Translations under genes and position numbers: made by a program | Source: Nitrospiraceae bacterium | GTDB taxonomy: Bacteria; Nitrospirota; Nitrospiria; Nitrospirales; Nitrospiraceae | Reading direction: 5' to 3' | NCBI GenBank assembly: GCA_009692155.1 | Contig: SHZW01000001.1 | Span: 62,001-126,000 of the forward strand | Length of the DNA: 64,000 nucleotides | The notes under the pieces: model-generated | Databases searched by the model: none | What the model saw: only the letters and a program-made list of their open reading frames with translations | Told to the model about the DNA's origin: nothing | Shown here: piece by piece, positions 12,779-20,836 of the stretch | How the letters are laid out: every line of letters starts with the position of its first letter | How positions within the stretch are numbered: the stretch's first letter is position 1

Positions 12779-12854
12779 GGCGGTGTAGCTCAGTTGGTAG
12801 AGCAGCGGACTCATAAGCCGCTGGTCACCCGTTCAATCCGGGTCACCGCCACCA
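12779..12854 (+). tRNA. tRNA-Met (anticodon CAT), elongator type
   Basis: A 76-nt cloverleaf: acceptor GGCGGTG pairs with CACCGCC, the D arm is GCTC/GAGC, the anticodon loop is CTCATAA, the T arm is ACCCG/CGGGT with loop TTCAATC, and CCA is encoded. G1-C72 pairing excludes an initiator. The closing anticodon-stem pair 31-39 is an A/G mismatch. A CAT anticodon could also be tRNA-Ile modified to lysidine, but the acceptor and D-arm sequence favour Met. Confidence 0.93.
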
Positions 12855-12992: not shown

Positions 12993-13011
12993 TTTAATGA
13001 TAATCATTTAA
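12993..13011. promoter_or_regulatory. Fur-box-like palindrome
   Basis: The 14 bases TAATGATAATCATT (12995-13008) match the centre of the classical 19-bp Fur box; 14 of 19 positions agree overall. It lies in an AT-rich stretch 11 bp before the -35 box of the first barrel gene. Confidence 0.6.
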
Positions 13012-13022
13012 GTAACTTATAG

Positions 13023-13052
13023 TTGACAAACTTACTTGTTTTTATGTATAAA
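13023..13052 (+). promoter_or_regulatory. Sigma-70-type promoter of barrel gene A
   Basis: TTGACA (13023-13028), an 18-bp spacer and TATAAA (13047-13052). The expected start lies near 13059, followed by a GGAAGG ribosome site before the GTG at 13086. Confidence 0.7.
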
Positions 13053-13085: not shown

Positions 13086-14132
13086 GTGTTCAGCGACTCA
13101 AAACTCTATGATGTGTTCGGAAAACTTTCACTCGCACTGATGGGTGTGGCCGTGATCGCCATCGGCACCGCACAGGCGTTCGAGTGGGTTCCGTCTGACG
13201 AGGAAATCCAGAAATACCGCCAGAGCTGGAATCCATTCTCGGAAGGCCCCCTGCTCATTCAATCCGTGGACATTCACCCTAAAGGGCAGCTGTCAGTTCG
13301 CCCGTTTCTCTTTTCCCAGATCGCCGAAAAGAGTTATGGGAACACGCTCTCACTCCCGAACAACAGGAAGGATGGCTCTGTTCACACCTACGCCGTTTCT
13401 CCTCTTATCACTATGACCTATGGTCTCACGGACCATGTGGAGCTGGGAGTCGCCACGTCGTGGCAGGCCTTTTGGGCCAAGGACACATCATCCGGCTCTT
13501 GGACAACGAATACCGGAATGGGCGACTCCTCCCTCATCATGAAATATCGCCCGGTCGTCCAGGACCCGGACAGCGCCAGGCCCTCCTTCACCTTGTATCA
13601 ACAAATTGTACTGCCGACCAGCCGATGGGCTGGAACCGAACGGCCTCCAGGAGGATTTGCTCCTCTTGGCCGTCTCCCAGCTACTCGATTCGGCGAATGG
13701 GGATTCACGGAAGGCTTCACGTTCAGAAAGAACAGCCAACCGTATCGCATCAGCGGCGGCGTGTATTACACCTACGCAGCTCCTGGCAGCGGCGCGGCCG
13801 GTCAGACCACCTATACCGGCGACGTCATCAATACCCGGCTAATTTTCGAACATTTTCTCGATGACAAAAAAGGATTGGCCTACAACCTCGAATTTGTCAC
13901 GGTGCATACCACGACCTGGCGGGCAGATGGACATTCGATCAACCGCGGACAACTCAGCGGATCCACCGTCGTCGGTATCGAGCCGGCCCTCCAATACAAG
14001 TTTTCCGATGCCTGGGTCGGCGCCGCAGGCGTGCTGTTCACTGTCGCCGGGCAGAATACCGCAGATGCGATCTATCCCAACTTTGCAATCCAATGGTATT
14101 GGAACCAGGGCAAGAAGGTCATCATGCGGTAA
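13086..14132 (+). CDS. Predicted outer-membrane beta-barrel protein, paralogue A
   Basis: A 348-residue protein from a GTG, with signal peptide (cleavage likely after AQA near residue 37). The mature part begins FEWVPSDEEIQKYRQSWNP, a motif shared by all three paralogues in this region. The rest alternates aromatic and polar residues as in outer-membrane barrels, with the shared block GGFAPLGRLPATRFG. It is closer to paralogue B (16682-17725) than to C. It has its own promoter with a Fur-like site and overlaps the convergent modC end by 11 bp. A channel or substrate-uptake role is inferred only. Confidence 0.75.
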   Translation: MFSDSKLYDVFGKLSLALMGVAVIAIGTAQAFEWVPSDEEIQKYRQSWNPFSEGPLLIQSVDIHPKGQLSVRPFLFSQIAEKSYGNTLSLPNNRKDGSVHTYAVSPLITMTYGLTDHVELGVATSWQAFWAKDTSSGSWTTNTGMGDSSLIMKYRPVVQDPDSARPSFTLYQQIVLPTSRWAGTERPPGGFAPLGRLPATRFGEWGFTEGFTFRKNSQPYRISGGVYYTYAAPGSGAAGQTTYTGDVINTRLIFEHFLDDKKGLAYNLEFVTVHTTTWRADGHSINRGQLSGSTVVGIEPALQYKFSDAWVGAAGVLFTVAGQNTADAIYPNFAIQWYWNQGKKVIMR

Positions 14133-15222
14133 CGGTTGCGCCAGCATCCCGCCGGGGCACGAGATGCACGGCTCCGGCTTTCATCGACGCCGATACGCGC
14201 ATCCCTACCGCCAGATGCAAGTCGCCCACGGCTGCACGAGTCACCACCGCCATGAGCGGAAACCCACAATCGAGGCTCACTTTCACCAGAGCCCCCGCCG
14301 CTGTCACGCCCCTGACCGTTCCGCTTAGACGGTTCCTCGCACTCGTCGTTCCGGTCTCCCCTTTTTCCAACACGACATCCTCGGCGCGAATACAGACGAA
14401 CACATCTGTTCCAACGTCATCAGCTGCCAACGCATGCAGCATCACACCGTTAACATCAACGGTTGCCAAACCACCGGATAACTCACGCACCCGACCGATC
14501 AGCGCTGTCTCCATCCCGACAATACGCGCAACGTCGGCCGTCACGGGCCGGTTGAAAATTTCCTGCGGGGTTCCTGCTTGAAGAACACGTCCCTCGTGCA
14601 TCACGATCATGCGATCTCCCAACGCCAGCGCTTCCCCCCAGTCATGAGTCACGACGATCGACGGGATCGCGAGTTGCTTCAAAAGATGCCGAAGCTCGCC
14701 TTGCAGACGCAGACGAGTCGGCACATCCAACGCGGACAGCGGCTCGTCGAGAAGCAGTACTCGTGGCCGGCGCGCAATCGCTCGCGCCAACGCCACGCGC
14801 TGCTGCTGACCACCCGATAGCTGCGCCGGCTTCCTCCGCTCAAGCCCCTGCAGTTGCAGCAGCGCCAGTGCCTCTGCCACGCGCCGCGACCGTTCTACTG
14901 CGGACAACTCGCCGAGCCCGAACACAATATTGCCTTCCACGGAGTAGGTCGGAAAGAGCGCATAGTCCTGCGAGAGACAGCCGAGCCGCCGCTGTTGCGG
15001 TGGCATGTGGATACCGGCCGCAGCGTCGAACCATGGTTCCTGGCCGCAACGGATCACTCCGCGATCCGGCCTTTCCAGCCCAGCCAGGCATCGAAGCACG
15101 GTCGTTTTACCAGAGCCGGACGGCCCGAAGAGAATCAGCACCGTCGGCGGATCCATGGGCAATTGCAGGCAGACGTCTAGCGTGAAACCGCTGTCATACG
15201 CCTTCGAAATTTCCGCAATCAT
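14122..15222 (-). CDS. modC: Molybdate ABC transporter ATP-binding protein ModC
   Basis: Powers molybdate import through ModB. Walker A is GPSGSGKT, the signature is LSGGQQQR and Walker B is VLLLDEP followed by the H-loop VTHDW. The last 80 residues form a TOBE/Mop domain (SGTVRGVTAAGALVKVSL). I choose the ATG at 15222 (MIAEISKAYDSG), which overlaps the modB stop as ATGA; an earlier start at 15243 is possible. Confidence 0.94.
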   Translation of the reverse strand: MIAEISKAYDSGFTLDVCLQLPMDPPTVLILFGPSGSGKTTVLRCLAGLERPDRGVIRCGQEPWFDAAAGIHMPPQQRRLGCLSQDYALFPTYSVEGNIVFGLGELSAVERSRRVAEALALLQLQGLERRKPAQLSGGQQQRVALARAIARRPRVLLLDEPLSALDVPTRLRLQGELRHLLKQLAIPSIVVTHDWGEALALGDRMIVMHEGRVLQAGTPQEIFNRPVTADVARIVGMETALIGRVRELSGGLATVDVNGVMLHALAADDVGTDVFVCIRAEDVVLEKGETGTTSARNRLSGTVRGVTAAGALVKVSLDCGFPLMAVVTRAAVGDLHLAVGMRVSASMKAGAVHLVPRRDAGATVTA

Positions 15223-15893
15223 TTCTGCGGCCATACCGCCCACACCTTGCGATTCATCGCATACACGCTGAGCAGAATCAGATACGAAACTGCCAGCAGA
15301 AGCAACGACGTCCTGGCCGCACCCACGTAGTTCAGCGCCTGCACTTCATCGTAAATATCGATGGACACCGTGCGCGTCACGCCTTCAATATTCCCACCGA
15401 CCATCAGCACGACGCCAAACTCTCCCAGCGTGTGTGCAAAGCTCAGCACGAACCCCGTCACGACCCCCGCCACAGACATCGGAAGAATAAGCTTAAAGAA
15501 CGTGCCAACGCGGGATACGCCGAGCGTCCAAGCGGCCTCAATGAGCTTTCGGTCCACATGATCAAAGGCCGCAGCAAACGGTTGGACCGCAAACGGCAGA
15601 CTGTACAACACTGAGGCGATCAGCAGTCCTTCGAATGTGAACGGGAGAGGATGGCCGACGAGGTCTGTGTAGAGCCGCCCGAACGGACTGTGCGGCCCGA
15701 TCGCGACCAGGATATAAAACCCCAGCACGGTCGGTGGCAGCACCAGAGGCAGCGCGACCACCGATTCGACCAGAAACTTCCATCGCCAGCGTGAGAAGCT
15801 CACCCAATATGCGATGGGCAGCCCGATGACGACCAGGAGCAGCGCCGTCATTGTCGCCAGTTGCAGTGTGACTCCGATCGCAATCCAGTTCAT
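15219..15893 (-). CDS. modB: Molybdate ABC transporter permease ModB
   Basis: Inner-membrane channel, 224 residues, about five membrane segments. The EAA-loop is LIEAAWTLGVSRVGTFFKLI and the C-terminal part has TLGEFGVVLMVGGNI, both typical of ModB. Four-base overlaps with modA and modC show a coupled operon. Confidence 0.94.
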   Translation of the reverse strand: MNWIAIGVTLQLATMTALLLVVIGLPIAYWVSFSRWRWKFLVESVVALPLVLPPTVLGFYILVAIGPHSPFGRLYTDLVGHPLPFTFEGLLIASVLYSLPFAVQPFAAAFDHVDRKLIEAAWTLGVSRVGTFFKLILPMSVAGVVTGFVLSFAHTLGEFGVVLMVGGNIEGVTRTVSIDIYDEVQALNYVGAARTSLLLLAVSYLILLSVYAMNRKVWAVWPQK

Positions 15894-16672
15894 GGTTGAG
15901 CTGCACCCGGAAGAACAAATCCGTACCGGCGAAGGATCTCCCGCCCCTCACGCTGTTGAAGAAACGAGAGAAACGCCTGCGCACCCTCGCGATTCCGTCC
16001 GTTCTTCAACACCACGGCTCCCTGTTCAATCGGCGAATGGGCTTCCTGCGAAATCTCCCAATACCGACCGGCCTGCTGCATCGCCGGGACCACGGCCAGC
16101 GACAGCGCAAGCAACCCGGCGTCAGCCGCGCCGGACTCGACAAACTGCGCCGCCTGCGAAATGTTTTCGCCCAGGACCAGCTTGTCCTTGACCGCTTCGT
16201 AGACGCCGGCATGGCGCATGGCCTCCGCAGCTGCCCGACCATACGGCGCATGCTTCGGATTGGCGATGGCGATTTTTCTGACGGCGGGATCGCGCAACGC
16301 CTGCAGACCCTGCTGAGGGGACGGCAATCCATGCCGGTTCGGAACCCAGAGCACGAGCCGGCCAATGGCATATCGATACAACGAACCGGGCACCGCCTGA
16401 CCGGACTCTTCAAGTTTTTGAGGATAGCGCACGTCTGCGGAAAAATACGCGTCGAACGGCGCCCCGTTCTGGATCTGCGAAAAGAGATTGCCCGATGAGC
16501 CCAGCGTGATCTTCGCGCGGGTTCCGGTTTGACGCTCGAACCGGCTCGCAGCTTCTTTGAGCGCAAAGCTTAGATCGGACGCGGCAGCGACTGTGATCTC
16601 CCCCGCCTGAGCAAATCCGCTCCCGCACGCAGCCGCAAGTACTATGGCACAGCCGAACCACTTCATGATCAC
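15890..16672 (-). CDS. modA: Molybdate-binding periplasmic protein ModA
   Basis: Captures molybdate or tungstate in the periplasm. It has 260 residues with a signal peptide (about 1-23). The mature start AGEITVAAASDLSFALKEA and the LGSSGNLFSQIQNGAPFDAY block are characteristic of ModA. It starts 10 bp after barrel gene B on the same strand. Confidence 0.94.
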   Translation of the reverse strand: MIMKWFGCAIVLAAACGSGFAQAGEITVAAASDLSFALKEAASRFERQTGTRAKITLGSSGNLFSQIQNGAPFDAYFSADVRYPQKLEESGQAVPGSLYRYAIGRLVLWVPNRHGLPSPQQGLQALRDPAVRKIAIANPKHAPYGRAAAEAMRHAGVYEAVKDKLVLGENISQAAQFVESGAADAGLLALSLAVVPAMQQAGRYWEISQEAHSPIEQGAVVLKNGRNREGAQAFLSFLQQREGREILRRYGFVLPGAAQP

Positions 16673-16681
16673 GATGTACTC

Positions 16682-17725
16682 CTACGGCATCTGGGCCTTT
16701 TTCCCCTGGTTCCAAAACCACCGAAAGGCAAGATTCGGATAGAACGCATCGGCGGCGTTCTGCCCCGCGACGGTGAACAGCACGCCTGCGGCCGCGACCC
16801 AGGTGTCAGAAATTCGCCATTGAATGGCCGGCTCGATACCGATCACGGTGGAGCCATTGAGCGAACCACGGTTGACGGCATGTCCGTCGGCCCGCCAGGT
16901 GGCAGTACTGACGGTGGTCAGCTCGAGGTTGTATGCAAAGCCCTGCCGATCATCCAGAAAATGCTCGAACGACAATCGGCTATTAATGACGTCGCCTGTG
17001 TAGGTCGTCTGTCCGGCATCGCTACCGGGAGTGGCAAAGCTGTAAAACAGCCCGCCGCTGATCCGGAACGGCTGAAAATTTTTCCTGAATGTCATGCCTT
17101 CGGTCAAACTCAATTCTCCGAATCGGGTCGCCGGCAAACGGCCGAGCGGGGCAAATCCGCCGGGCGGCCGCTCGGTGCCGGCCCACCGGCTGGTCGGCAG
17201 CACGAGTTGCTGATACAGGGTGATGGACGGCCGGGCACTATCCGGATCCTGGACGATCGGGCGATATTTCATTTGGAGGGACACGTCGCCCATCCCGGTA
17301 TCCGTCGTCCAAGGGCCACCCTTGCCCTTGTTGAATGAGTCTGAATCCTTGGTCCAAAAGGCCTGCCATGACGCCGCCACTCCCAATTCCACGTGATTGG
17401 TGAGCCCATAGGTCAACACGACGAGAGGCGACACTGCATAGGTGTGGACCGGACCGTCTTTCCGGTTGTTCGGCAGCGAGAGCGTGTTGCCATAACTTTT
17501 TTCGCTGACCAGGGAAAAGACAAACGGTCGAACGGACAACTGGCCCTTCGGATGAATGTCCACGGATTGAATCAAGAGTGGGCCTTCTGAGAGAGGGTTC
17601 CAGCTCTTGCGATATTTTTGAATCTCTTCGTCGCTGGGCACCCATTCCCACGCACTGGCCACTCCCGCCGAATACAGACATATGAGCGCCACACTGATGA
17701 TGAACAGGCCCTTCTGCATGTTCAC
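16682..17725 (-). CDS. Predicted outer-membrane beta-barrel protein, paralogue B (mod operon)
   Basis: A 347-residue protein with signal peptide (cleavage after VASA near residue 25) and mature start WEWVPSDEEIQKYRKSWNP. It shares long stretches with paralogue A, including RPIVQDPDSARPS and GGFAPLGRLPATRFG. The sequence has the alternating pattern of an outer-membrane barrel but no TonB box or plug domain that I can see. It starts inside the regulator's stop (ATGA) and ends 10 bp before modA, so it is part of the operon. This suggests an outer-membrane route for molybdate or tungstate; the substrate is inference. Confidence 0.78.
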   Translation of the reverse strand: MNMQKGLFIISVALICLYSAGVASAWEWVPSDEEIQKYRKSWNPLSEGPLLIQSVDIHPKGQLSVRPFVFSLVSEKSYGNTLSLPNNRKDGPVHTYAVSPLVVLTYGLTNHVELGVAASWQAFWTKDSDSFNKGKGGPWTTDTGMGDVSLQMKYRPIVQDPDSARPSITLYQQLVLPTSRWAGTERPPGGFAPLGRLPATRFGELSLTEGMTFRKNFQPFRISGGLFYSFATPGSDAGQTTYTGDVINSRLSFEHFLDDRQGFAYNLELTTVSTATWRADGHAVNRGSLNGSTVIGIEPAIQWRISDTWVAAAGVLFTVAGQNAADAFYPNLAFRWFWNQGKKAQMP

Positions 17726-18903
17726 ACCGCCTGCACCTTGCCGGTCTCGCGCATGTCATACCCGCCCAGCGCTTCGACTTCCGCGCGAAATGTCCGGCTC
17801 GTCATCATGTCGAGCAAATCCGCCACGCCACGATGGAGGGACACATAGGGCGTGGGAATCACGAGATCGTAGCGTTCCGTTTGGAGCTCGATGAAATCCA
17901 ATCCTCGCGATTGCGCCACCGCCGGCGTGCCGATGCCCGCATCCGCTTGGCCTTCGGCGATCAGCCGCGCCACCTCCAGATGCGAGCCGGCCACTCGCTG
18001 ATACCCGTTGACCTGCCTGCCGATCAGGCCGGCGGCGGTCAGTTTCTGATCGAGTAGCAGCCGGGCCCCCGCGCCTGTTTCACGGTTGACGATCGTAATG
18101 TCCTTGCGAGCCAACTCCTCGATGCCTCGAAGGTGTTTCGGATTGCCTTTTTTCACCATCAATCCTTGCTGCCAGGAGGCGAAGGTGACCACCGTCACGT
18201 CCTGTCCTTTCAAGTTCCGCCGCACGTAGGGCAGATTACTTTCGCCCGTTCGCGCATCGACGACATGGAGCCCGGCCACGTGCACCTCTCGTCGTTTCAA
18301 TGCCTCGATCGCCGCCGCGCTGCCCATCGACCAGCCCACCAGCATGCCGGCAGCCGGACGGCGGCGCAGATAATCCCCGGCCAGATAAATGGCGGGATCG
18401 CACCCGGCGATCACCACCTGCGATTCAATCTCACGCCGGTCCCGCAGCAACTGCACGCGAACACGCGAGGATGTTCGCCTCGGACCGGACTTCGCTGCGC
18501 CCATCAGCAGCCCATCGGCGCCCACGGAAAAGTTCAGCGTCTCGCCCAGCGACGCCACCGGCAGCACGACCATCCGGTCGCCCACACGGGCCACTTTGAC
18601 GCGAATGGGACCGGTCGCCTGAACGTCGGTCCCGATCAGATGTCCCTCCAGGACATCGCTGGTCGATCCAAGGCTGAACAGATCTTCCACCCGACAGCCG
18701 AGTGCCGACGCCAGACGCAGCGCGACCATCGTCGTCGGCAAATACTGATTATCTTCAATGGCGTAGATGGCCTGCCGCGTGACGCCTGCCGAGTCGGCCA
18801 GCTGGCCTTGCGACAATCCCCTGCCCACGCGCAGGCTTTTCAGGCGGTTTTCAAAGCGACTGAGTGGTTCAGCCTGATGTTGAATTCCCATGGCAGTTGA
18901 CAT
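17722..18903 (-). CDS. HTH (XRE) regulator with periplasmic-binding-like sensor domain
   Basis: Likely the one-component regulator of the mod operon. Residues about 15-75 form an XRE helix-turn-helix (LSQGQLADSAGVTRQAIYAIEDN). The C-terminal about 200 residues resemble the PBP-like domain found with molybdate and molybdopterin proteins (GCDPAIYLAGDYL, then VNRETGAGARLLLDQKL and ADAGIGTPAVAQ). It lacks a signal peptide, so sensing is cytoplasmic. The start may be 18903 or 18891 (MGIQHQAEPLSRF). It is the first gene of the operon with barrel B and modABC. Confidence 0.85.
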   Translation of the reverse strand: MSTAMGIQHQAEPLSRFENRLKSLRVGRGLSQGQLADSAGVTRQAIYAIEDNQYLPTTMVALRLASALGCRVEDLFSLGSTSDVLEGHLIGTDVQATGPIRVKVARVGDRMVVLPVASLGETLNFSVGADGLLMGAAKSGPRRTSSRVRVQLLRDRREIESQVVIAGCDPAIYLAGDYLRRRPAAGMLVGWSMGSAAAIEALKRREVHVAGLHVVDARTGESNLPYVRRNLKGQDVTVVTFASWQQGLMVKKGNPKHLRGIEELARKDITIVNRETGAGARLLLDQKLTAAGLIGRQVNGYQRVAGSHLEVARLIAEGQADAGIGTPAVAQSRGLDFIELQTERYDLVIPTPYVSLHRGVADLLDMMTSRTFRAEVEALGGYDMRETGKVQAV

Positions 18904-18904
18904 G

Positions 18905-18937
18905 GGATATCAGAATAGATTACATACTGTCAAGTAT
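18905..18937 (-). promoter_or_regulatory. Regulator promoter with overlapping inverted repeat
   Basis: On the minus strand TTGACA (18928-18933) lies about 15-17 bp from a weak -10 (TGATAT/ATATCC). The perfect inverted repeat ATACT-GTCA-AGTAT (18924-18937) covers the -35, a good place for autorepression. The -10 nearly touches the start codon, so the mRNA may be leaderless. Confidence 0.45.
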
Positions 18938-18996
18938 TATGTCTTCACCGTAAAGGATCCAGAATCCATGGTGGAATAAATTAACGAATCCGTAAC

Positions 18997-19023
18997 TTGC
19001 CTTCGACATCTCCGTGCTATAAC
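18997..19023 (+). promoter_or_regulatory. Candidate promoter of barrel gene C
   Basis: TTGCCT, a 15-bp spacer and TATAAC (19018-19023). The ATG at 19032 is only 8 bases after the -10, which would give a leaderless transcript; no ribosome site is visible. Confidence 0.4.
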
Positions 19024-19031
19024 TGCCGCCC

Positions 19032-20117
19032 ATGAACACCGACGCCAGCATATCTCCGCTGCACACCGTCCACCGCGCATTGCGTCGCCCCCTCATCGGC
19101 TCCCTCCTTGCCGTTTCATTGCTCTCGCTTGGCGCTCCCATGGCAAGCGACGCCTGGGAGTGGGTGCCGTCGGAGGAGGAAATCCAGAACTATCGCCGAA
19201 GCTGGAATCCCATGTCGAATGGACCAATCCTGATCTCGGGCGTCGACATTTCACCAAAAGGTCAGTTCCATGCCCATCCGTTTATTTTTGCCCAAATCAG
19301 CGAGAGCAGATATGGCAATCAGCTGTCCGCGAATCGGCAGCCAACCAATGCGCACCTCTACCAGATTGCGCCCCAAGTGAATTTTGCGTACGGCTGGACA
19401 GATCACATCGAAACAGAATTGAGCCTGAAGTGGCTGGCCTTTTGGGAGAAGGACAGCGGCAAGTTCAATAGCGGGGAAGGCGGACCATGGACGACGAACA
19501 CCGGACTCGCCGATGTATCGATCTTTATCAAGTACCGCCCGATCGTCCAGGACCCGAACGGTTGGAGACCGTCTGTCACGATATTCAATCAAATCGTGTT
19601 ACCAACGGAAAAATGGTATGGCACGGAGAAGCCGTCTGGCGGGTTTGCTCCACTCGGCCGACTACCGGCTACGCGCTTTGGTTCCATCACCTGGACAGAA
19701 GGCATCGAATTCAGAAAAAATCTTCGCCCGTTCCGGATCAGCGGCGGCATATTCTATTCCTACTCACTACCTGGCAACGAAGGAGGAGAGAATAAGTACC
19801 CCGGTGATCTCGTGAATACGAGACTGATCATTGAGCATATTCTCGATGACAAGAATGGGTTTGGCTACAATCTAGAATTTGTTGGACTGCATGGGCTGAC
19901 GTTTCGGGCCGACGGGCATCCGGTCAACGCTGGAGGAATAAACGGTTTCACTACTTTGGGGGTTCAGCCCACCATTCAATTCAAATTCACAGATGCCATC
20001 GTGGGGGCTGCAGGCGTGCTAGTGCCCATCGCCGGCCAGAACAGTCTTGCTGGCATATTTCCGAATTTCTCGATTTATTTCTTTGGAAGCACGACCGGCA
20101 AACCGAGGATGCGCTAG
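19032..20117 (+). CDS. Predicted outer-membrane beta-barrel protein, paralogue C
   Basis: A 361-residue protein, the most diverged of the three barrel paralogues. Signal peptide with likely cleavage near residue 41 (ASDA), mature start WEWVPSEEEIQNYRRSWNP. It keeps the family blocks RPIVQDPNGWRPS and GGFAPLGRLPATRFG but differs in most loop regions (for example GENKYPGDLVNTRL). It is divergent from the regulator across a 128-bp gap, so both may be controlled by the same protein. Confidence 0.72.
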   Translation: MNTDASISPLHTVHRALRRPLIGSLLAVSLLSLGAPMASDAWEWVPSEEEIQNYRRSWNPMSNGPILISGVDISPKGQFHAHPFIFAQISESRYGNQLSANRQPTNAHLYQIAPQVNFAYGWTDHIETELSLKWLAFWEKDSGKFNSGEGGPWTTNTGLADVSIFIKYRPIVQDPNGWRPSVTIFNQIVLPTEKWYGTEKPSGGFAPLGRLPATRFGSITWTEGIEFRKNLRPFRISGGIFYSYSLPGNEGGENKYPGDLVNTRLIIEHILDDKNGFGYNLEFVGLHGLTFRADGHPVNAGGINGFTTLGVQPTIQFKFTDAIVGAAGVLVPIAGQNSLAGIFPNFSIYFFGSTTGKPRMR

Positions 20118-20122
20118 GCACT

Positions 20123-20836
20123 TCACGGCAGGAACGAGGCAACCGATTTGGCGGGACGCAGCTTGTTCAGGTCGATCACCACGTCGTCCTTTTCAAGCCC
20201 CCAGATTACGTCCCACAAGCTGAAGTTCCTCGGCACGACGGCGTGCCCGGGATCGAAGAAAACTTCGAAGTCCTTGGGGGCAATCGGCAGGACCGGATAC
20301 CGGCGATCATAGACCATCCCGTGGGCCGGGATCCCGTATATCTCGCGGTGATTGCTCAGCGTGAAGTGCAACTCGCTGCCCTGCATGTACAGACCGCCGG
20401 ACGTGATCTGCCGCTTCACCGAGGTTTGCGGCGTGCTCAGATAGTATGTGACCCTCTCTTCCGGTGTTGCTTTGGCCAGCGCATCCGCCAGTTTTTCCGC
20501 CAGCAGCTCGATTTCCGCCTCCGTAAACGCCGGTTCAAAATCCGCCTCTCCGGAAATCCATGTGTGAACCCTCAAACGGTAATTGCGGACACTGAGTCCC
20601 TTGAGAATCGCCGTCATTTCATCGGCGCCGATCGCCACCGGATGCGCATGTCTGGTTTCCAGACGATCTGGCAAAACGCGATGGTCGAATTCCAAACGTA
20701 CGAAGTTGGTCGGATCTTCGTATACGACCCGCGAAGAGACATGCGGCACGGCGCAAGCAACAAGCGCCAATGTAAAATTTAAAATTAAAAATGTAAACAC
20801 TCCTCGCACCACAATTTTGCACTTTTCATTTTTCAT
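20123..20836 (-). CDS. Hypothetical lipoprotein
   Basis: From the ATG at 20836 the protein has 237 residues. The hydrophobic N-terminus ends in LALVAC, a lipobox. The remainder includes VRLEFDHRVLPDRLETRHAHPVAIGADEM and AEIELLAEKLADALAKATPEER; no family recognised. The open frame runs further upstream to 20980 but that part is antisense to the end of the cyclophilin gene. The first codons are supplied by an AT-rich low-complexity repeat. Confidence 0.7.
   Translation of the reverse strand: MKNEKCKIVVRGVFTFLILNFTLALVACAVPHVSSRVVYEDPTNFVRLEFDHRVLPDRLETRHAHPVAIGADEMTAILKGLSVRNYRLRVHTWISGEADFEPAFTEAEIELLAEKLADALAKATPEERVTYYLSTPQTSVKRQITSGGLYMQGSELHFTLSNHREIYGIPAHGMVYDRRYPVLPIAPKDFEVFFDPGHAVVPRNFSLWDVIWGLEKDDVVIDLNKLRPAKSVASFLP

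Follow-up and report, generated by a model that had tools for sequence, protein, structure and literature searches.

A recurring outer-membrane barrel slot between regulator and modA in Nitrospiraceae molybdate operons, and a predicted barrel within it as a candidate oxyanion entry channel

The window analysed here, 64,000 nucleotides of contig SHZW01000001.1 from a Nitrospiraceae genome (assembly GCA_009692155.1), carries the genes of a molybdate ATP-binding cassette (ABC) importer in a minus-strand operon, with its open reading frames (ORFs) in the order Reg, B, modA, modB and modC from 18903 down to 14122. Reg encodes a presumed molybdate-sensing regulator and B a predicted outer-membrane barrel, two paralogues of which lie alongside: A is convergent behind modC, and C is divergent from Reg. 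Judged by sequence comparison, B appears to stand where an OprO/P-like porin or an AlgE-like barrel sits in the operon of relatives. This general pattern, one slot with several barrel families, is a more important finding than the original idea of an earlier note on this DNA, namely that the three proteins could form an outer-membrane uptake system for molybdate or tungstate. We put at roughly 60% the probability that B serves the molybdate (or tungstate) ABC importer as its dedicated entry channel in the outer membrane, and infer its substrate, transport direction and selectivity from its place, fold and regulation. Passage of molybdate across the outer membrane is mostly ascribed to general porins, and nitrite oxidisers rely on a molybdenum enzyme while living in waters where the metal is often scarce. 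If B has this role, it would let molybdate cross the outer membrane, a poorly known step of molybdenum uptake.

The slot was compared across 87 mod loci with Reg and modA on one contig, and it holds Porin_O_P in 60, Alginate_exp in 19, a barrel of the A/B/C family in seven and none in one; the single empty-slot locus has a family barrel beside and divergent from Reg. These loci derive from 105 places with a type-I ModB, corresponding to 100 loci in 98 genomes, from which 13 loci that did not have Reg and ModA together on a contig were excluded; 85 were oriented automatically and two (L168 and L170) were read by eye. Slot Porin_O_P and Alginate_exp were assigned by tblastn with one query each, with Pfam confirmation for one mod-type Porin_O_P and four type-I Alginate_exp slots, and all 18 slots first left as another ORF turned out to match the AlgE query (57-100%), which is itself one of the 18. 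A second ModB type (47-54% identical) was sampled at 20 of its 30 places: all 15 loci with Reg and ModA hold an Alginate_exp relative in the slot, two cut loci have such a relative directly before ModA, and in three loci Reg was not seen and none of the barrel queries found a match. Outside the taxonomic family, ModB was present in 35 genomes, 20 of which were examined, with Pfam run on five proteins. Alginate_exp precedes ModA in 9 of 12 loci of one family (f3), once with another ORF between; the five loci of a second (f2) include one Porin_O_P match and one unclassified 328-aa ORF before ModA; and no barrel was recognised in the three loci of a third (f4), two of which are cut close to ModA. 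An outer-membrane barrel before modA is thus the rule in the taxonomic family and common in its order, and the type of barrel changes. Alginate_exp relatives precede modA at most of the loci examined for the second mod operon type and for another of the order's families (L252-L270 and L276-L286).

The seven genomes with a family barrel in the slot are the source genome G000 and G001, G007, G016, G018, G032 and G153. None of them is among the 87 of 147 genomes with a mod-type Porin_O_P at E 1e-20, and the source genome has no PF07396 match at all. The locus of G153 (L151) reads Reg-SBP2-Lip2-barrel-ModA, the family barrel occupying the position that Porin_O_P has in the usual operon; regulator, second binding protein (two tblastn pieces) and lipoprotein are retained, and only the porin is exchanged. 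Slot barrels occupy three places in the family tree: the B clade with four rows (support 100/99), one row in an eight-row clade (100/99) and the clade of L056 and L080 (100/100). The tree was built from core regions only, with 68 of 70 members entered and two too short; members were taken from tblastn, the gene caller having missed some barrels. For the L056 slot barrel and L080, whose long branches meet L081, the tree program gave a warning, and how deep in the tree this clade belongs is therefore uncertain. The G153 slot barrel, which is outside the tree, is 79% identical to the L056 slot barrel and 47% to B. The pattern looks like repeated non-orthologous replacement, with three clades of the family having apparently entered the slot. 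Since barrels of three unrelated families occur at one operon place, the outer-membrane role in molybdate uptake suggested earlier is better founded, and the idea is strengthened, not proven. A wider proposal is that Nitrospirota mod operons hold an outer-membrane socket controlled by a molybdate-sensing regulator and that at least three unrelated barrel families (OprO/P-like, AlgE-like and COG4313-fold) have been swapped into it, the COG4313-fold member carrying a hydrophilic oxyanion as a dedicated passive molybdate route; we consider the chances of this proposal evenly balanced.

The genes and sites of the locus are listed in Table 1. The equivalog scores of a molybdate ABC importer are above cut-off for both ModA and ModB. 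ModC lies below the NCBIfam TIGR02142 cut-off (263 vs 285 bits), and the WtpC model gives it 283 bits, which is above its TIGR02142 score, with a far higher cut-off of 440. The ORFs of three paralogues around modABC exist as described earlier: identity to A is 77% for B and 54% for C, and all three contain GGFAPLGRLPATRFG. The mature start WEWVPS once ascribed to the whole set does not hold for A, which reads FEWVPS. The position of B between the regulator and modA stands, with a gap to modA of 9 bp (16673-16681) instead of the 10 bp first given; the 4-bp overlap of Reg and B holds if B starts with the GTG at 17725 and would disappear if it starts with an ATG at 17719. Reg is kept beside modABC in relatives. 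In the source genome (89.6% complete), A, B and C are the sole three family matches, and A is 96% identical (334 columns) to the gene behind modC in another genome (G002).

Table 1. Positions of genes and candidate regulatory sites at the mod locus, numbered within the window
Feature	Positions	Strand	Description
Operator-like site	13011..13028	+	Weak site resembling the Reg operator, before A; second best in 64 kb (15.9 bits)
A	13086..14132	+	Family barrel, 348 aa; 3' ends of A and modC overlap by 11 bp
modC	14122..15243	-	ABC ATPase with TOBE domain
modB	15219..15893	-	Permease; TIGR02141 228.5 bits, cut-off 182.6 (NCBIfam)
modA	15890..16672	-	Molybdate-binding protein; TIGR01256 210.8 bits, cut-off 62.5 (NCBIfam)
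B	16682..17725	-	Family barrel occupying the Reg-modA slot
Reg	17722..18903	-	Regulator with XRE-type (Cro-type) helix-turn-helix and PBP_like domain (PF12727, 209 bits); presumed molybdate sensor
Candidate Reg operator	18928..18945		Shared promoter region of Reg and C; 19.6 bits, best in 64 kb
C	19032..20117	+	Family barrel, 361 aa
Lip2	20123..20836	-	Lipoprotein-like protein, ATG at 20836 chosen; adjoins C

Family members occur in 36 of 99 genomes (source genome included), all in the taxonomic family of the window, Nitrospiraceae, and in 56 of 147 genomes of that family in a wider sample, again including the source genome. A scan of named genomes gave 73 loci, of which 67 carry Nitrospira-type titles, four are from Myxococcales, one is from Elusimicrobia and one is titled Nitrosospira. 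Distant relatives (38-44%) occur in metagenome-assembled genomes of Myxococcales and Elusimicrobia (L236, L237, L238, L239 and L240), with no ModA, ModB or Reg matches close by. After 18 fragments were dropped from 109 matches, 91 near-full family genes in 51 genomes remained, and 38 of them have ModB on their contig no more than 15 kb away. Of the 19 genes with 65% or more identity to B (among them A and B), 17 are within this distance of modB. By our own estimate, chance would give about one gene near ModB, a 30-kb window being about 1% of such genomes. The link of homologues to mod genes elsewhere, on which the earlier note depended, is borne out by these B-like genes and by the slot barrels of seven genomes. 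One stop in the matched stretch, or a fragment, was seen in several family copies (G044:C10, G003:C1, G017:C49, G022:C1 and G052:C228; fragments in G039, G101 and G153), so copies may often be lost. A third context of the family is beside AcrB-type resistance-nodulation-division (RND) pumps (L033:15441-16463, L035:6427-7491, L050:14883-15920 and L075:7992-9050), where the barrels also adjoin a protein that, by eye, resembles RCC1 repeats.

Structure prediction and fold comparison covered B alone among the three paralogues. The AlphaFold2 model, from a 61-row alignment, predicts a 12-stranded barrel with a mean predicted local distance difference test (pLDDT) of 89.7 and a predicted template modelling score (pTM) of 0.84, in agreement with the barrel topology proposed from the sequence. 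The best solved fold match to the model is the COG4313 channel 4RL8 (Z 24.4; root-mean-square deviation 2.6; 249 residues aligned, at 10% identity), and the next is FapF (5O65; Z 23.2). A search of the PDB by sequence gave nothing credible (best E 0.29). B is above the cut-off of PF13557 (27 vs 22 bits), A and C on their own match no Pfam family, and PF13557 is matched at E 0.01 or better in 5 of 61 family members. Like the COG4313/PF13557 channels (Pput2725, which is 4RL8; TcpY; SphA), B is predicted to have 12 strands, is of like size and has an extra N-terminal segment; in B this segment, conserved in the family, is made up of about 37 residues of presumed mature protein ahead of strand 1. 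COG4313 channels are linked to aromatic or lipid degradation, and the A/B/C family to molybdate and oxyanion genes. TonB-dependent transporters consist of a plug domain and a 22-stranded barrel. This class was rejected for the family: a Pfam scan up to E 1 found no plug match for A, B or C, as the earlier reading of the sequence had it, and the model of B has 12 strands. Porin_O_P membership was likewise rejected, no PF07396 match being found for A, B or C in the same scan.

The upstream regions of Reg share a candidate operator. A de novo search of 77 such regions gave the palindrome TGTCAAGTATACTTGACA, 18 positions wide, with a log-likelihood (width 20) of 367.5 against 27-33 in three base-shuffled sets run with fewer starts. 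It reaches at least 12 bits in 71 of 78 Reg upstream regions and in 1.6% of random 290-bp pieces from the same loci. At 18 bits or more, there are 12 matches in 855 kb (61 loci, picked for holding barrels), all before Reg and/or a family barrel. Three of the 12 are outside the training regions: before L055, whose contig ends just upstream so that Reg may lie beyond; before the slot barrel of L056; and before L080, where the site precedes a family barrel without mod genes near. In 60 genomes, near-consensus matches (at most three mismatches) occur at 19 places in 17 genomes, compared with 14 places in 12 genomes for a reversed control, so the bare count says little; 9 of the 19 places are within 10 kb of ModB, a figure that has no counterpart for the control places. 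The source genome has no near-consensus match at this threshold. In the window, the best site lies in the promoter region shared by Reg and C, which was among the 77 training sequences, and it has an intact half-site TGTCAAGTAT and an imperfect second arm; none of 500 shuffles reaches its score. The site before A is weak evidence since it overlaps a -35-like TTGACA, and 3 of 500 shuffles reach its score. B needs no operator site of its own because it is inside the operon. Binding of Reg to the palindrome, its sensing of molybdate and repression would be consistent with these data, the sensing being suggested by the PBP_like domain and the position of the gene. A Fur-like palindrome TTTAATGATAATCATTTAA (window 12993-13011) was also seen 93 bp before A, with 14 of 19 positions matching and 2 of 300 shuffles as good, and it is weaker in a sister gene (13/19; 25/300 shuffles).

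Taken in this way, the molybdate (or tungstate) oxyanion would diffuse across the outer membrane through B, after which ModA would bind it and ModBC would pump it in. When the oxyanion is plentiful, Reg would sense it and keep the promoter shut, so that the set is repressed. A, beside modC, and C, which shares the Reg promoter region, would be additional copies that probably serve the same tetrahedral oxyanion or one like it. Should the N-terminal segment plug the barrel, a narrow path might remain that is wide enough for a small oxyanion; alternatively, a molybdate complex could be the substrate.

Several observations weigh against a dedicated molybdate channel. By strand alternation, the mean net charge of the lumen is +0.6 (7.5 basic and 6.9 acidic residues), so a cationic lumen as proof of anion selectivity is not supported, the net charge being near zero, and anion selectivity is not evident from this count. 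The method is rough, as it places the invariant lysine K213 on the lipid side; the lumen positions conserved in at least 85% of members are six basic (K151, R153, R212, R219, R248 and R302) vs three acidic (D145, E252 and E266). According to the available parts of PMC4493636, the N-terminus of 4RL8 folds into the lumen and blocks it, hydrophilic solutes are conducted poorly, and COG4313 channels are proposed to carry hydrophobic substrates. More than half of the family genes (53 of 91) have no ModB within 15 kb on their contig, some adjoin PiT/arsenic genes or RND pumps, and no family match was found in the 39 sampled genomes from other families of the order (these and the 147 genomes above are samples). 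Barrels at PiT loci lack the operator, the highest score there being 8.2 bits, and for barrels behind modC the scores of about 9 to 16 bits fall short of the 18-bit threshold. It is also conceivable that general porins let molybdate through.

The neighbourhoods of the other family members raise the possibility, which we regard as improbable though the best of the alternatives, that the family consists of general small-anion channels (for molybdate, arsenate/phosphate and others) beside different importers, with the mod link as one case of many and C serving arsenate or phosphate. PiT/HflK loci account for 14 of the 68 tree rows, and the neighbours there are a PHO4-family permease, an ArsS radical SAM protein (TIGR04167 450 bits, cut-off 300) and an arsenite-methyltransferase-like protein, with one protein of each scanned. 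Nitrospira moscoviensis fits this picture, having one family member divergent from Reg at a mod locus (L180), which also holds a Porin_O_P relative, and a second at a PiT/ArsS/ArsM locus (L209). But C adjoins Reg and shares its promoter region, its position near the PiT-locus rows of the tree is without firm support (an open fork), and almost all B-like genes are at mod loci, in the proportion given above. Given its loose grouping with these rows, C may be a relocated oxyanion channel of other specificity, now under Reg. The conserved locus of ArsM-like methyltransferase, ArsS, PiT permease and family barrel was seen at L049, L054, L058, L062, L069, L070, L071, L074, L076 and others, and its barrel is a possible outer-membrane partner for arsenic or phosphate.

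The closest solved fold leads to a somewhat less probable alternative, namely that the barrels carry a complexed or amphipathic form, such as molybdate on a catecholate-type chelator or an organic ligand, by lateral or plugged-lumen transport. This would keep the mod link and is consistent with the COG4313 fold, the studied members of which are linked to hydrophobic substrates in PMC4493636, the solved one having its N-terminus in the lumen, as well as with the conserved segment ahead of strand 1. Against it, the strands have a polar side with conserved arginine and lysine, and the slot partners, Porin_O_P and Alginate_exp, are anion-passing families. That the barrels are envelope proteins functionally unrelated to molybdate in a permissive, duplicating region is very improbable, for despite the three copies in one place and the degraded copies elsewhere, the slot recurs with three unrelated barrel families, the family clades entered it separately, and operator matches precede barrels, one of them far from mod genes.

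The entry-channel reading of B was also compared with other known systems. Porins of the OprO/OprP type (PF07396) are anion-specific partners of importers. They occupy the same slot in the mod operon of relatives and are longer than A, B and C and unrelated to them in sequence; the mod-linked Porin_O_P weakly matches the NCBIfam model ExtI, a porin of a selenite/tellurite operon (28.5 bits, cut-off 150). FapF is like the model of B in its 12-strand fold, and it secretes amyloid subunits, as stated in part of PMC5557850. In Pseudomonas aeruginosa, the type VI secretion system (T6SS) ModA-IcmP ties an outer-membrane protein to molybdate capture; from the text available of PMC8602904, IcmP is an outer-membrane metalloproteinase partner of a secreted ModA, whereas B is a predicted barrel in the mod operon. 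Among the matches listed in the open-access literature (titles and starts of abstracts), no outer-membrane barrel of a mod operon was found described, nor was one present in the passages of PMC545781 and PMC3924187. Within the main text as available, two papers on Nitrospira moscoviensis (PMC6606698 and PMC8407350) contain neither 'molybd' nor 'porin', and PMC6147048 contains neither 'porin' nor 'outer membrane'. If the reading is correct, the COG4313 fold would gain a substrate class beyond the hydrophobic molecules proposed in the portions of PMC4493636 cited above. The conserved slot with unrelated barrels makes outer-membrane molybdate transport directly testable, including in the cultivated Nitrospira moscoviensis.

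Lip2, beside C, is distantly related (22-32% identity) to a conserved lipoprotein-like protein whose gene neighbours Porin_O_P in other mod operons, for example at L044:2343-3068; the remaining 30 rows of that comparison were chosen for having a lipobox, so their cysteine is no evidence. For Lip2, Pfam gave no match, and a fold search of the PDB found none at E 0.001 or better. The source genome has three molybdopterin-family matches, one of which is a 1152-aa relative of type II dimethyl sulphoxide (DMSO) reductases (TIGR03479 273 bits, below the model cut-off), the type to which nitrite oxidoreductase A belongs. A second operon lies beside the mod locus at L057:9335-15213 and like loci, encoding another large porin-like protein, a ModA-like binding protein, a lipoprotein, an SsuA-like binding protein and an ABC transporter. 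Just 5' of the locus in the window is a tRNA-Met gene (12779-12854, plus strand); by eye, a similar tRNA end precedes the relative of A in G007, so the tRNA may mark the edge of the locus.

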